36,282 bases of DNA from a virus. This document shows, in pieces, positions 2,438 through 16,671 of this stretch; position 1 is the first letter of the stretch, and the number at the start of each line of letters is the position of its first letter. The stretch lies in IMG/VR virus record IMGVR_UViG_3300049005_000019, positions 1 through 36,282 of that record; one strand, 5' to 3'. A model generated the notes under the pieces. It ran no database searches. It was not told the origin of the DNA and saw nothing but the letters and a program-made list of their open reading frames with translations. A program made the translations under genes and the position numbers.

Positions 2438-2806
2438 TCAGGACTTGGGGACGGGGCCGAGATGCAGCTTCGTCAGGAACGCGGCCACCGACTCGAGGTT
2501 GGCGATCCGGTTGATGGCGCCAGCCAGGATGCCGATCACCACGGCCGCTCCGGCGATGTCGGCGCCGACCGGAGTGCCGGGGAAGAGCTTGTTCGCCGCC
2601 TGCTCAGCGATCGGGGCGGCGGCAAGAGCTGCGGCGGCACCGAGGGCGCAGGTAGACAGGAACGACGTCACACCTGCCCTGATCGCCGTCCTGGCCGGAA
2701 ACTCCGTCTGGGTGGCGAGATGCTTGCTCGTCGTGGCCGACGTAGCAGCCGAAGTCGACGTGGTGGCCGTGGTGGTCGGCTCACTGGGCGGCAGGGACAG
2801 GGTCAT
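2438..2806 (-). CDS. Putative holin
   Basis: A 122-residue membrane protein. A Thr/Ser-rich N-terminal stretch (residues 1-30) is followed by two hydrophobic segments, about residues 46-67 (STCALGAAAALAAAPIA) and 78-100 (VGADIAGAAVVIGILAGAI), then a short charged tail. Its ATG overlaps the endolysin stop codon, and the small size, two membrane spans and pairing with an endolysin support a holin that opens the cytoplasmic membrane. Sequence alone cannot separate a holin from another lysis-related membrane protein. Confidence 0.7.
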   Translation of the reverse strand: MTLSLPPSEPTTTATTSTSAATSATTSKHLATQTEFPARTAIRAGVTSFLSTCALGAAAALAAAPIAEQAANKLFPGTPVGADIAGAAVVIGILAGAINRIANLESVAAFLTKLHLGPVPKS

Positions 2807-3447
2807 GAGATCTTCTCCCAGTAGTGAAGCTCGAGCGCGTCCGTCTTCGGACCACGCTTGCCATCATGTTTGTACGGCGGGACCGGGTAGCGGCCATCCT
2901 TGATGCCGGCTGCCTGGATCAGCCACACGTAATCGCCGTCCGGGTCGCCGGTGTGCGCCGTGTCTGTCTGGCGGCCCAGGTGGCGGCCGTTCAGGTAGGC
3001 GCCCAGCTTCTTGTAGTCGATGACCGGCACGACCGTGTGCCCGTCGTACTGGAAGTGGTTCGGGTCACCCTGAAGAGGACGGGTGAAGCCGTACGTCTTT
3101 GCCAGGGCGAAGAACGCGGAATCCAGCGGCGTCCCGACGATGTCGACACAGATCCCAAGGCCGTGGTTCGAGGTGCCCGCTTCGGCCAGGACTGCAGTAG
3201 AGGAGGACGACAGCCCCCACTTCGCCTTGTCGGCCTTCGTGCCGTGCAGCGACGCCGTCCGCATGGCCGACTGGACGGCGTACGACCGGTACCCGCCGGC
3301 CGGAGCAGCGATGCGGATCGTCCGGTCCAGGTGCAGCTTCACGGCCCTCTTCAAGCCCAGGTAGGCCTTCGCGGTGCCGTCGCCGAGCTGGATCGACCCC
3401 TGTACCGAAGTCAGGTCGCCGCCCGCCAGTCGCCCGTTGCTCACCAT
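2803..3447 (-). CDS. Endolysin, M15 (VanY-like) zinc peptidase
   Basis: A 214-residue peptidoglycan peptidase. The M15 signature is clear: GGYRS (residues 51-55), SNHGLGICVDI with H95 and D102, and NHFQYD with H131, which together would bind the catalytic zinc in D-Ala-D-Ala or L-Ala-D-Glu carboxypeptidase-type lysins. The C-terminal 70 residues (WLIQAAGIKDGRYPVPPYK) look like a small added domain, possibly a cell-wall binding element. TAGCGT at 3456-3461 lies 8 nt before the ATG, and an operator-like palindrome is just upstream (3475-3487). A lysis gene between MuF and scaffold is an unusual place. Confidence 0.88.
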   Translation of the reverse strand: MVSNGRLAGGDLTSVQGSIQLGDGTAKAYLGLKRAVKLHLDRTIRIAAPAGGYRSYAVQSAMRTASLHGTKADKAKWGLSSSSTAVLAEAGTSNHGLGICVDIVGTPLDSAFFALAKTYGFTRPLQGDPNHFQYDGHTVVPVIDYKKLGAYLNGRHLGRQTDTAHTGDPDGDYVWLIQAAGIKDGRYPVPPYKHDGKRGPKTDALELHYWEKIS

Positions 3448-3474
3448 AGGTTCCTACGCTACCCGTGAAACGTC

Positions 3475-3487
3475 GTTGACGCTCACT
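3475..3487 (+). promoter_or_regulatory. Divergent promoter with degenerate operator copy
   Basis: GTTGACGCTCACT matches the genome-wide GTTGAC-N2-TCAAC palindrome with one substitution in the right arm. For the plus-strand gene it gives TTGACG (3476-3481) and TAAAGT (3501-3506), spacing 19 bp, longer than ideal. For the endolysin on the minus strand, TAGCGT (3456-3461) is a candidate -10. The copy lies in the 57-bp gap between divergent genes. Confidence 0.5.
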
Positions 3488-3504
3488 TATCTCCGGCGCG
3501 TAAA

Positions 3505-3747
3505 GTGGCTGAAGTGGATTGGTCAGTGTTGCCCGTCACCGAAGTCGCCACCGCATCATGCGTCTACCCGGTGCACGACCTGGACCCTGCCCACTACTAC
3601 CCGACTGGTGCGACGAAACCGTCTTCCGGCCCGATCCATGTGCAGCGCCTGGTCGATGGTTCACTGTTCGTGCACGACGGACGACACCGTCTCATCCGGG
3701 CAATCCTCGCCCATCAGGCCACGATCGAGGCCCGCGTCTTCACTTGA
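3505..3747 (+). CDS. ParB/sulfiredoxin-like domain protein, antisense within late operon
   Basis: An 80-residue protein with the ParB/sulfiredoxin nuclease-like pattern: a hydrophobic strand with VHDLDPAHY (residues 23-31), GPIHVQRLVDG (42-52), and the hallmark DGRHRLIRAI (58-67) followed by IEARVF. In larger proteins this fold binds nucleotides and acts in partitioning, nuclease or kinase roles. Here only the core domain is present and there is no HTH or partner ParA. It is transcribed against the surrounding virion genes, and its last 8 bp overlap the 3' end of the MuF gene. With -10 TAAAGT at 3501-3506, the GTG at 3514 (7 nt later) would be a leaderless start, so the first three residues are uncertain. 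Confidence 0.72.
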   Translation: MAEVDWSVLPVTEVATASCVYPVHDLDPAHYYPTGATKPSSGPIHVQRLVDGSLFVHDGRHRLIRAILAHQATIEARVFT

Positions 3748-4663
3748 CGGTCAGCGTCGGCCCACCTGCCGGCACGTCTCGGCCGAACGGGAACTTGCCG
3801 GCCTTCACGGCGCGTCGGGCGTACTCCTTCACCGACTTCGGGGCGATCGGGTCGCGGTCCAGTAGGCGTGAAGCCGCACGGACCCGAGCTGCATTCGACT
3901 CGGAGGGAAGCGCGAAACCGCGCAGAATCGACCGCTGAGCCTCGCGCTGGAGGGCTTCCGCGTATGACGCATCGCCGAGCACGGCGAGGCGGCATCGGCA
4001 GTGGGCGTGAAGCGGAGGCTGGGAGACGATCGGCTGTGATGCGGGAGGTGTCGCGTACAGGTCGGCGGCCGGGAAGAAGTCACCCGCCTGCTCGACGACA
4101 TGGCCGGCGAGGGCGAGGCAGTAGACGCACGCATCACGCTCTGCCTCCCATACCATCGGCGACTTGACGGCCTCCCCGACGGTCAGCGAAGCGGCGTTGG
4201 AGGAGGCGTTGATCTGCGTCTCGATCCTTGCTTGCACCGTGTTCGCAGCAGCGAAGACGGGCGACAGCGCCTCTTCGGCTTTCGCCCCGACGGCGAGGAG
4301 GCCGAGCGCTGACGTCTTCGCTGAGGTGACCCGGGCGTCTAGGCCGGTCAGGGGTGCGACGAGGGTGTCGTGCGGGCCGGAGTCGAGGCGCATCTTCGCG
4401 TCCCCGACCGCGTTGTCGGTGACGTCGGGGAGGATCTGAGCGGACCCGATCGCCCAGTCGCCGCCCATCTGGTACGCCTCGAGCACGCCTGCCTTCGCTG
4501 CGGCTTCGATCTGCGGGATGGCGAGGCGGGCCAGCTTCGCCCCGATGCCGGGGGCTCCGGAGGCGAGCATGGAACGCAACTCGTCGACCGCTTTCAGGAA
4601 GTCGCCGGCCGCATCCTTCAGCACCCGCGCCTCGAGGGCCAGCAGGTCGTCCTCGAAGGTCAT
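3740..4663 (-). CDS. Minor head protein, SPP1 gp7/MuF-like
   Basis: A 307-residue minor capsid protein, usually present in a few copies near the portal. The N-terminal half is helical and Ala-rich. The diagnostic part is WEAERDACVYCLALAG (about residues 172-187) and PPLHAHCRCRLAV (about 217-229), the paired Cys-x2-Cys and H-x-HCRC motif of MuF domains. The C-terminus is basic. Order after portal is as expected. The upstream 129 nt is non-coding and no good ribosome-binding site is seen directly before the ATG. Confidence 0.87.
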   Translation of the reverse strand: MTFEDDLLALEARVLKDAAGDFLKAVDELRSMLASGAPGIGAKLARLAIPQIEAAAKAGVLEAYQMGGDWAIGSAQILPDVTDNAVGDAKMRLDSGPHDTLVAPLTGLDARVTSAKTSALGLLAVGAKAEEALSPVFAAANTVQARIETQINASSNAASLTVGEAVKSPMVWEAERDACVYCLALAGHVVEQAGDFFPAADLYATPPASQPIVSQPPLHAHCRCRLAVLGDASYAEALQREAQRSILRGFALPSESNAARVRAASRLLDRDPIAPKSVKEYARRAVKAGKFPFGRDVPAGGPTLTVK

Positions 4664-7251: not shown

Positions 7252-7273
7252 ATCATACTAGTTGACTGTCAAC
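7252..7273 (-). promoter_or_regulatory. Leaderless promoter with operator palindrome upstream of the Zn-ribbon/methyltransferase genes
   Basis: The perfect palindrome GTTGACTGTCAAC (7261-7273), in plus-strand context CTAGTTGAC, lies directly upstream of a minus-strand -10 (TATGAT 7252-7257, or the overlapping TAGTAT). It sits in the 33-bp gap after terL, and would switch on methyltransferase and downstream head genes independently of the terminase transcript. Confidence 0.65.
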
Positions 7274-13958: not shown

Positions 13959-14237
13959 CTACGCCGCCCTCCCGACCTTCACTGGCGTCTGAGCCTTGAA
14001 CGTCGCCCGAAGCGCTGTGACGTCGCTGACCAGGTCGGGCCAGCCGGGTCGACGTAGGGCGACGTCCCAACCTCCCGAAGCCCTCAGGATGGCGCTGAAG
14101 GCCCATCCGTGCATGGTCCCGGTCAGCCTCACCGACCCGAAGTCGTTCCGTTGAGCCGTCACCGAGTAGCCGGCACCGATGGCTGCGCTCGCCAACGACT
14201 TCGCCGTGCCGTCCAGGTGCTCGAGGGGGAGATCCAC
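13959..14237 (-). CDS. Hypothetical protein, first gene of the fibre/packaging block
   Basis: A 92-residue protein (MDLPLEHLDGTAKSLASAAI) with an alpha-beta-beta-alpha look: beta strands SVRLTGTMHGWAFSAILR and GWDVALRRPGWPDLV. I use the GTG at 14235-14237 because TACCCT (14244-14249) lies 6 nt upstream, the leaderless spacing seen elsewhere. A longer version to 14294 would run into the large inverted repeat. No function known. Confidence 0.6.
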   Translation of the reverse strand: MDLPLEHLDGTAKSLASAAIGAGYSVTAQRNDFGSVRLTGTMHGWAFSAILRASGGWDVALRRPGWPDLVSDVTALRATFKAQTPVKVGRAA

Positions 14238-14290
14238 CCCTTCAGGGTACCGCCTACCACGGCTCGGGGTCCAGGGGCGAGACCAATGAC

Positions 14291-14467
14291 CCAATGACAG
14301 CAGTGACGACCATTTATGCCGTTCCCCCTAGGGCATGTCGAGCTGGGATGGGGATGGGTTTAGTGGGCGCGTGCGCGGAAATATAGGGAAGTGACCCGTT
14401 TGGGGTGTATGCTCACTCGGTATACCCTAGGAGCTAGGGCATAAACGGTCGTCACTGCTGTCATTGG
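14291..14467. repeat. 30-bp inverted repeat flanking a G-rich core: candidate replication origin or divergent control region
   Basis: The left arm (14291-14320, beginning CCAATGACAGCAGTGACG) is the reverse complement of the right arm (14438-14467) at 29 of 30 positions. Weaker matching continues inward, with a shared CCTAGGG. The 117-bp interior contains a G-rich stretch (14345-14367), an A/T-richer patch (GGAAATATAGGG) and a TATACC box. An extra CCAATGAC lies directly outside the left arm. It separates the minus-strand fibre block from the plus-strand primase. Origins often carry such repeats next to the primase gene, but divergent promoter duplication would look similar. Confidence 0.7.
14345..14367 (+). 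other. G-quadruplex motif inside the inverted repeat
   Basis: Four runs of three or more G on the plus strand: GGG (14345-14347), GGGG (14350-14353), GGG (14356-14358) and GGG (14365-14367), with loops of 2, 2 and 6 nt. This meets the usual G3+N1-7 rule for a folded quadruplex. Confidence 0.65.
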
Positions 14468-14474
14468 AGCCCAT

Positions 14475-15419
14475 GTGAACCATTTCGACCATCTGTCGAT
14501 CGCGTTGCAGAACGCGGCGAACGGGTGGCCTCAGTTCCCGGTCGATCAGGAGAAGAGGCCGTTCAAGGGCTTCTTCGACTGGGAGCACAACGCCACCCTG
14601 TCCGCCGAGGCGATCACCGTCTTCGGCACCATCGACCACCCGGGTTGCCTCTGGGCCACCGTCCCCGGCATGGTCGGGAAGACGTGCATCGACATCGACC
14701 AGCACGCTGATAAGCCGGACGGGTTCCGCTCCCTGGCGATGCTCGGCCTGTCGGTGAAAACGCCGCACGTCTACACCTCCGTCTCCGGCAACGGCCGCCA
14801 CGCCTGGTACCAGGGCCGCAGCTCATCCCGGAACGCCCTCTATCCCGGCATCGACCGCAAGTCGGTGGGCGGCTACGTGGTGACCCCGTATCTGCTGCCA
14901 CCCGTGTCGGAGGTGATGACGCGTCTTCCTGAGGCGTTCCATGGCCGCGACGACGACCACGAGCAGCATCCGTTCAAGGGCGATGCCGCCGGGTGGCTGG
15001 CCGAGCATGCCGGCTTCTCACCTGCTCAGCGAGTGCGTTCGGTGGTGAAGGAGGCGGCACGGGAGGAGTTCCGCGGTCACTCCTCGATGGTGAAGCGGCA
15101 GACCCGTCTGGTGCACCTGGCCCGGGAAGGCCATGGAGGCGTCCCCGAGGCGCTGTCGGAGTTGCGGGAGATGTGGGTGTCTGCCGAGCACGGGAAGAAC
15201 GAGGATCCGGCTGTCGAGTGGCAGACGGCGTTGCTGGGCGCGATCAAGAAGTACGGGGGCGGACGGAATGACAGTGGACGTGGGGTCAGTGGACCCGTTG
15301 ACGGATCAGGCGCTGGCGACAGTGCTGGCAGACGAGCTGCGCGGGGTGGTGCTGCGTACTCCCGGCATGGGGTGGATGGAGCTTCGCCCGGACGGCGCGG
15401 TCTGGTCGCCGCTGAGTGA
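14475..15419 (+). CDS. Bifunctional primase-polymerase (prim-pol, AEP family)
   Basis: A DNA primase/polymerase of the archaeo-eukaryotic type that makes primers for phage replication. KRPFKGFFDWEHNAT (28-41) is the usual N-terminal signature. The metal-binding D-x-D is CIDIDQH (D73, D75), followed by SGNGRHAWY (104-112, H109) and GIDRKSVGGYVVTP (125-138). GTG start with GGAG 6 nt upstream. The frame stays open for 152 nt into the helicase gene. The last 50 residues are Gly/Arg-rich and look like out-of-frame sequence, so the functional protein may end near 15262 or be joined to the helicase by a +1 shift. Confidence 0.85.
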   Translation: MNHFDHLSIALQNAANGWPQFPVDQEKRPFKGFFDWEHNATLSAEAITVFGTIDHPGCLWATVPGMVGKTCIDIDQHADKPDGFRSLAMLGLSVKTPHVYTSVSGNGRHAWYQGRSSSRNALYPGIDRKSVGGYVVTPYLLPPVSEVMTRLPEAFHGRDDDHEQHPFKGDAAGWLAEHAGFSPAQRVRSVVKEAAREEFRGHSSMVKRQTRLVHLAREGHGGVPEALSELREMWVSAEHGKNEDPAVEWQTALLGAIKKYGGGRNDSGRGVSGPVDGSGAGDSAGRRAARGGAAYSRHGVDGASPGRRGLVAAE

Positions 15420-16671
15420 TCAGGTGATGCTCGACCGGGTCTCCAAGCTGGTCGCTGCGATCGGTGGCCGGATCGTGCTGGAGGCAGGCCTGGAGAAAGT
15501 GTCGAAGTTCGCCGTCGTCGGGTCGAAGAAGAAAGCCTCCGACGTGCTGGCGCTGCTGGCCGGTCAGCTCCAGGAGTTCGATTCGGTGTTCGACGCGAAG
15601 TCGTTCCTGTTCAACTGCCCTAACGGGGTGGTGAACCTGCGGACGAAGAAGTTCCGGAAGCACAAGCCGTCCGACCGGTTCCTGAAGGTGGCCGGCTGCG
15701 ACTACATCCCGGGGGCGGTTTCACGGGAGTGGCTGCAAGCCTGGTCGGCGGTGGACGAGGAGACAGCCCCATGGCTCCGCCTCCGTCTCGGCCAAGCCCT
15801 CACCGGTGAACGCCCAGCCGATGATCGGGTGCTGTTCCTCCGCGGAGAGGGAGCAAACGGGAAGTCGGTGATCATGGACGCCGTATCGCTCTCGATCGGC
15901 GGCTACGGCCTGGCCGCTCCTCCTCGAGTCCTGTTGTCCTCCCCGTCGGATCATTCGACGGAGCTGATGACGCTGAAAGGCGTCCGAATGGCGTTCCTGG
16001 AGGAGCTGCCCGACCAGCACCTGTCGGGCGCTCAACTGAAGCGCCTGTCCGGTCCACGGGAGATCACGGCCCGACTGATCGGGGAGAACAACGTGTCGTT
16101 CCCGGCCGCGTTCAGCCTGTTCGTCACCACGAACTATCCGCTGCGCACGCCTGACACCGACTACGGGACCTGGCGTCGGTTCGCGATCGTGCCGTTCTTC
16201 TTCAAGTACGTGGATGAGCCGGTGGCGGAACTGCAAGGCGAGCGGAAGCGGGACGGCGCCCTGAAGCGGTGGTCAGAACGGGTCGCCGATCCAGGCGTGT
16301 TGGCGTGGCTGATCGACGCAGCGGTAGATGCCGAGCGGGACAAGGTGGCGTTCACGACGTTGCCCCGACCGGTGCAGATCGCCACCGATGAGGCGGAGCG
16401 GGAGAACGACACGATCTCCCAGTTCTGCGCGGAACGGCTGGTGCTCGAGCAGGGTGCGACGTTGGGGAAGACGGAGATGCACCGCGCCTACGCCGAGTGG
16501 GCTCGAGGCCAGGGCCTGTCTCCGGCGTCCGGCCCGACGTTCCGTGCCCGGTTCAAATCGACAGAGTTCGGCAAGCACGTCGACGAGTCGAGGTCGTCGA
16601 CCGCTCGGTCATGGCTGGGTGTCCGGCTGGCACAACGCCTGCCCTACGTATCGGAGGTTCCTGATGTCTGA
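15268..16671 (+). CDS. SF3 replicative helicase (D5/P4-type)
   Basis: A 467-residue DNA helicase. After a D5 N-terminal region (about 90-180, with NCPNGVVNLRTKKFRKH), the AAA+ SF3 core has Walker A GEGANGKS (193-200), Walker B AFLEELPD (242-249), motif C VTTNYPL (about 285-291) and a downstream GTWRRFAIVPF arginine-finger region. The C-terminal 80 residues look like a winged-helix DNA-binding tail. The ATG lies 1 base out of frame from the prim-pol frame, after GGGGGCGGACGG. In many phages the two are one polypeptide. Together they would prime and unwind at the nearby repeat. Confidence 0.9.
   Translation: MTVDVGSVDPLTDQALATVLADELRGVVLRTPGMGWMELRPDGAVWSPLSDQVMLDRVSKLVAAIGGRIVLEAGLEKVSKFAVVGSKKKASDVLALLAGQLQEFDSVFDAKSFLFNCPNGVVNLRTKKFRKHKPSDRFLKVAGCDYIPGAVSREWLQAWSAVDEETAPWLRLRLGQALTGERPADDRVLFLRGEGANGKSVIMDAVSLSIGGYGLAAPPRVLLSSPSDHSTELMTLKGVRMAFLEELPDQHLSGAQLKRLSGPREITARLIGENNVSFPAAFSLFVTTNYPLRTPDTDYGTWRRFAIVPFFFKYVDEPVAELQGERKRDGALKRWSERVADPGVLAWLIDAAVDAERDKVAFTTLPRPVQIATDEAERENDTISQFCAERLVLEQGATLGKTEMHRAYAEWARGQGLSPASGPTFRARFKSTEFGKHVDESRSSTARSWLGVRLAQRLPYVSEVPDV

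Follow-up and report, generated by a model that had tools for sequence, protein, structure and literature searches.

A putative replication origin with facing short-repeat arrays beside a D5-type helicase gene in an uncultured phage

Helicases that recognise their own origins

At the origins of SV40 T antigen and papillomavirus E1 the binding sites face each other and the proteins form double hexamers, and the alpha protein of phage P4, a primase-helicase fusion, initiates at its own repeats (ori). The fused nature of the P4 initiator is confirmed in PMC7145576, and T antigen and E1 belong to the SF3 helicases, each recognising its own origin (PMC7581432). The C-terminal domain of SCCmec Cch2 binds short direct repeats adjoining its gene, and these repeats are required for unwinding; the SaPI Rep apparently binds its own iterons as two hexamers (PMC7581432).

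The sequence analysed here, referred to throughout as the window, is a 36,282-base IMG/VR virus record in which two inverted arms carrying short tandem units lie next to a D5/SF3-type helicase gene. In this respect it is like the SCCmec Cch2 and SaPI Rep origins, where iterons are likewise found beside the gene of a D5-family (D5_N / Primase_Cterm) helicase (PMC7581432), and the SaPI5 Rep, a primase-helicase, shows a likeness to the helicase of the window. However, the SaPI and SCCmec origins are found downstream of the gene, flanked by other genes, whereas that proposed for the window lies upstream, in a divergent gap, and the window differs further in that its Prim-Pol and helicase occupy separate, overlapping frames. 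Given this position upstream of both genes we did not file the repeat as a SaPI-type origin, though it may still work alike. The comparison with T antigen and E1 also has its limits, as these proteins use an origin-binding domain at the N-terminus to read DNA, while in the helicase of the window the corresponding element is a predicted C-terminal winged helix. On the evidence given below we consider it probable that the inverted repeat is the replication origin of this phage, with iterons that are read by the adjacent D5/SF3 helicase through its C-terminal winged helix. If true, this narrows the origin to ~180 bp for an uncultured phage, and links it to the self-loading SaPI / SCCmec helicases and to SF3 double-hexamer initiation.

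The inverted repeat and its setting in the window

The preliminary description had located the repeat in a divergent gap directly before the prim-pol and helicase genes, and the gene calls agree with this placement. Rightward of the repeat come most of the + strand replication genes, running from 14475 as Prim-Pol, D5/SF3 helicase, exonuclease and an endonuclease VII-like gene, and the structural genes (tail, terminase, portal and head) lie to its left on the minus strand. The Prim-Pol gene, which encodes an AEP primase-polymerase (14475-15419, + strand; PF09250, E 3e-13), starts with a GTG at 14475, 7 bases past the right arm, and is followed by the helicase gene at 15268-16671 on the same strand. 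The first ORF to the left (13959-14294, minus strand) is without a family match; its longest version starts at 14294, and its true start is probably a GTG near 14237, as judged by eye. No close relative of the window itself was found among the records open to the search; comparison of the DNA of this region with phages detected no direct relatives, nor did prim-pol and helicase peptide patterns run against viral and genome contigs.

The geometry given in the preliminary description was reproduced throughout: the 30-bp arms at 14291-14320 (+ strand) and 14438-14467 (minus strand) are identical at 29/30 positions and 117 bp apart, a weaker homology continues inward to give 52-nt arms (14291-14342 and 14416-14467, 85% overall), and an extra CCAATGAC lies outside the left arm at 14283-14290. 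The inner left extension (14321-14342) contains CCCTAGGG and that of the right arm (14416-14437, minus strand) most of CCCTAGGAGCTAGGG; their identity is 15/22 vs 29/30 for the outer part (Fisher P = 0.007), indicating that the outer 30 bp are better kept. With thresholds of ≥20 bp in length, ≥88% identity and a gap between 30 and 400 bp, no second inverted repeat was found in the window, and simulated windows (n=30) contained almost no inverted pairs within 400 bp, even of as little as 14 exact bp.

Inspection of the arms revealed a short unit, CARTGAC, repeated in tandem in three copies on the left (14284, 14292 and 14301, together 14284-14307 on the + strand) and two on the right (14451 and 14460, together 14451-14466, reading GTCAYTG on the + strand), all of which point inward with spacings of 8, 9 and 9 bp. 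The leftmost copy, at 14284, falls within CCAATGAC and thus outside the left arm. Five of the 11 copies found on both strands of the whole window lie at the repeat, a count that is descriptive since the unit was read off the repeat itself. The period at an offset of 9 is modest in this one arm of the window taken alone, being reached by 2.6% of random 21-mers. The repeat both adjoins a D5-family helicase gene and holds several regularly spaced short sites, two features by which origins of this kind are recognised. Inward of the units the arms share further sequence, a part that the origin model leaves unexplained.

The inner units are ~143 bp apart, a wider gap than in most relatives, where the median is 49.5 bp. 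The intervening DNA has a GC content of 0.56-0.58 vs 0.64 for the window and includes, close to the repeat's axis (14367-14377), a short tract of alternating purines and pyrimidines, GCGCGTGCGCG. This tract is a candidate site of distortion or melting, if a weak one, as 7 tracts of its length or longer occur in the window. A G-quadruplex-type motif, GGGATGGGGATGGGTTTAGTGGG, is situated between the arms on the + strand (14345-14367) and is one of three such motifs found in the window.

Two near-perfect terminal repeats flanking ~117 bp could also be the mark of a mobile-element remnant (MITE), or of an invertible segment carrying a promoter between recombinase sites. However, no target-site duplication was apparent at the repeat, further copies of the arm were detected neither in the window nor in viral contigs, and the two matches to 20-mers of the arm in genome contigs are about what is expected by chance. 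The proteins scanned, which covered part of the small ORFs, likewise included no recombinase or integrase for an invertible segment, and we find a remnant or invertible segment of this sort scarcely credible. The preliminary description had also proposed the GC skew as a check on an origin at this site, and here the outcome was unfavourable, the detrended minimum being at ~10.6 kb and not at 14.3 kb; the TA skew of the window has no extremum at the repeat either.

Facing arrays in other phages

Relatives of the terminase (~43-57% identity) provided loci in which the gap between replication and structural genes could be compared. The arm sequences differ among these gaps, and several of them contain facing arrays of short repeats: GTAGCG in L041 and L064, TGTAAA in L042, GTAAC in L017 and L018, GTGACA in L021 and GGAGCA in L103, with imperfect versions in L006, L009, L022 and L117 (the last recognised by eye). 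The expectation that both arms would be conserved in relatives was thus not borne out; the arm sequence is not kept, and the layout alone recurs. In most such gaps the counts of single 6-mers are equal to or slightly over those of shuffled controls, for which reason we treat the arrays in the terminase relatives, taken by themselves, as suggestive. Between the arrays of several relatives lies an alternating purine-pyrimidine tract like GCGCGTGCGCG, which is striking in L021, L103, L022 and L117; as it is not so in L008, L017 and L018, it was not taken as a defining feature.

A scan with a helicase alignment yielded 80 loci, some of them overlapping records from the terminase search. Inverted repeats were scored blind to the sequence of the unit, with a threshold score of at least 17 within at most 1.2 kb downstream of the helicase ORF. 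Repeats of this score were found downstream of the helicase in 19/62 non-redundant loci vs 4/314 control blocks (P = 5e-13). Upstream windows reached the threshold in 2/55 cases, that of the query among them, and the repeat of the window has the second-highest score overall; in its position upstream of the genes the window departs from most relatives, which is a point against an origin. One control block far from a helicase (L131, ~2750-3950) has an unexplained inverted repeat with a score of 35 (TGTTCATAGGTACATCTTACCATGCTCC...). Among the helicase-adjacent arms with tandem units the period is 9 bp in 35/39, and the self-match of the arms is 0.54 at an offset of 9, 0.32 at 10 and 0.20-0.26 at other offsets, a pattern that holds when the window is left out. 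In 42 of the 46 cases the DNA separating the arms has a higher AT content than its own locus.

The neighbours of these repeats bear on an alternative that the preliminary description had offered alongside an origin, namely a duplicated divergent control element. In that case each arm would be an outward promoter/operator, directing replication genes to the right and structural genes to the left, with a site for a common regulator. The position of the repeat in a divergent gap, with 7 bp separating the right arm from the start of Prim-Pol, is in keeping with this proposal, and the 52-nt arm permits a reading, by eye, of TCGACA-17-CATAAA in the left copy and TCGGTA-17-CATAAA in the right one. 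In the close relatives L017 and L018, moreover, the GTAAC repeats are flanked on the outside by two further facing arms, CTAAGGCGC...TATCCTGAGAGC (1869-2143 and 1719-1996, respectively); these arms contain TATCCT, a plausible -10, and look like a divergent promoter pair flanking the array. However, no consensus promoter match was obtained at the repeat of the window (the consensus may not be that of the host), and conservation between the arms is greatest in the outer 30 bp, where the tandem units are, rather than in the putative -35 and spacer. Further, 17 of the 26 downstream repeats lie between same-strand genes without an overlying ORF and another 5 lie over an ORF call between same-strand genes, leaving 3 in convergent and 1 in divergent gaps. 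As the flanking genes are mostly co-directional, a divergent promoter cannot account for the repeats downstream of helicases, which can be explained as origins adjoining the gene of their initiator. We therefore regard a duplicated control element as an unlikely account of the repeat in the window; of the two options in the preliminary description the origin is favoured by the helicase-adjacent repeats and their co-directional neighbours, and the arms may in addition have promoter activity.

The same survey weighs against an element that acts at the RNA level, such as the shared leader of two divergent transcripts known from antitermination sites. The arms would indeed give both transcripts near-identical leaders, but no Rfam match was obtained, the one hairpin noted (CCCTAG-GAG-CTAGGG) is limited to the right side, and in other phages the copies next to helicase genes do not form paired leaders, making such an element very improbable.

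A separate palindromic motif, CTAGTTGACNNNCAAC with the core GTTGACNGTCAAC, is found repeatedly within intergenic gaps of the window or next to them, at 7258, 9997, 17629, 20763, 23640 and possibly 26349. With up to 3 mismatches it has 23 matches in the window vs 5.3 expected, four of them exact, and it resembles a family of operators belonging to a phage regulator, TTGAC being a possible -35.

Among cultured phages the full pattern was recovered in the annotated genome of Mycobacterium phage Milly (NC_026598), with facing arms TGGACGGATTGGACAG and TGGACAGATTGGACAG separated by a gap of 82 bp and lying 228 bp past the primase-helicase gene. Milly shares the architecture of the window, but its copy is downstream of the gene and is built of another unit sequence. 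The repeat (5560-5687 of L200; ~49.6-49.7 kb of the record) falls inside annotated gene 73, a hypothetical protein, so that either gene 73 is a questionable call or gene and candidate origin share sequence. A partial pattern with CGGGTGCC units (score 14) was seen in GMA4, and no clear pattern in Isperia, OscarSo, WaterT, FuzzBuster, SM23, LuckyBarnes, Honk, phiSASD1 and TG1. The Milly record has no origin annotated at the repeat, and none is annotated beside the primase-helicase in the cultured relatives examined.

The helicase as putative initiator and its proposed match to the units

An AlphaFold2 model of the window's helicase (mean pLDDT 69.5) matched the folds of AsfvPrimPol, the SaPI5 primase-helicase (Z about 22), poxvirus D5/E5, NrS-1 and papillomavirus E1. 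For residues ~383-456 of the model the match was to the winged-helix DNA-binding domain of RFX (1dp7), with Z 10.9 and an rmsd of 2.0 across 72 residues; the C-terminus is accordingly predicted to be an RFX-DBD-like winged helix that binds dsDNA.

From these features we infer binding, melting and a bidirectional start at the repeat. The iterons would be the tandem CARTGAC copies of each arm with their period of ~9 bp, and the D5/SF3 primase-helicase encoded immediately to the right would read them through its C-terminal winged helix. Because the arrays face each other, two hexamers could form on them in a head-to-head arrangement, open the duplex between the arms and then move apart, while primers for synthesis would come from the adjacent Prim-Pol. 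Binding of the initiator would cover the region of the Prim-Pol start and could thereby be autoregulatory, and as the arms lie between divergent transcription units it may also regulate both.

A broader proposal, on which we are evenly divided, is that phages with D5-type primase-helicases share an apparently undescribed origin design, consisting of facing arrays with a fixed 9-bp period, units that differ in nearly every phage and an RFX-like C-terminal reader, in which unit and reader are exchanged together. A rule of facing arms and a 9-bp period looks to apply in many phages, and no description of it was found in the literature searched. If true, the joint exchange of unit and reader would make the origin of a phage predictable from sequence alone, and a simple rule, namely facing arms with a 9-bp period next to the helicase gene, would predict origins in dozens of phages, Milly included.

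Joint exchange is suggested by a comparison of L041 and L042, which are ~94% identical over the terminase DNA and alike in their Prim-Pol halves and in long stretches of the gap. Their iteron blocks have an identity of 0.38-0.50 and their helicase halves are ~50% identical at the amino acid level; L064, on the other hand, has the same iterons as L041 and a helicase half that is 99% identical to it. As the exchanged iterons and helicase half lie apart, with conserved sequence between them, this suggests that they work jointly. It is a single case, and phages of the L041/L042 type are mosaic elsewhere too. Over all loci, unit sequence correlated weakly with the helicase C-terminus (Mantel correlation 0.09, P = 0.02) and no worse with the ATPase core (0.10, P = 0.05); given so weak a correlation, with no specificity for the C-terminus, the claimed match between reader and unit rests on this one exchange, and the L041/L042 pair offers a ready test case for identifying the part of the helicase that reads the units.

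L041 and L042 also differ from the window in encoding Prim-Pol and helicase as a single fused protein. In the window the 3' end of the Prim-Pol gene and the helicase ORF overlap by ~150 bp in different frames (15133-15419), and the Prim-Pol tail past ~15265 resembles out-of-frame sequence, so that the overlap is either a natural split or an assembly frameshift.
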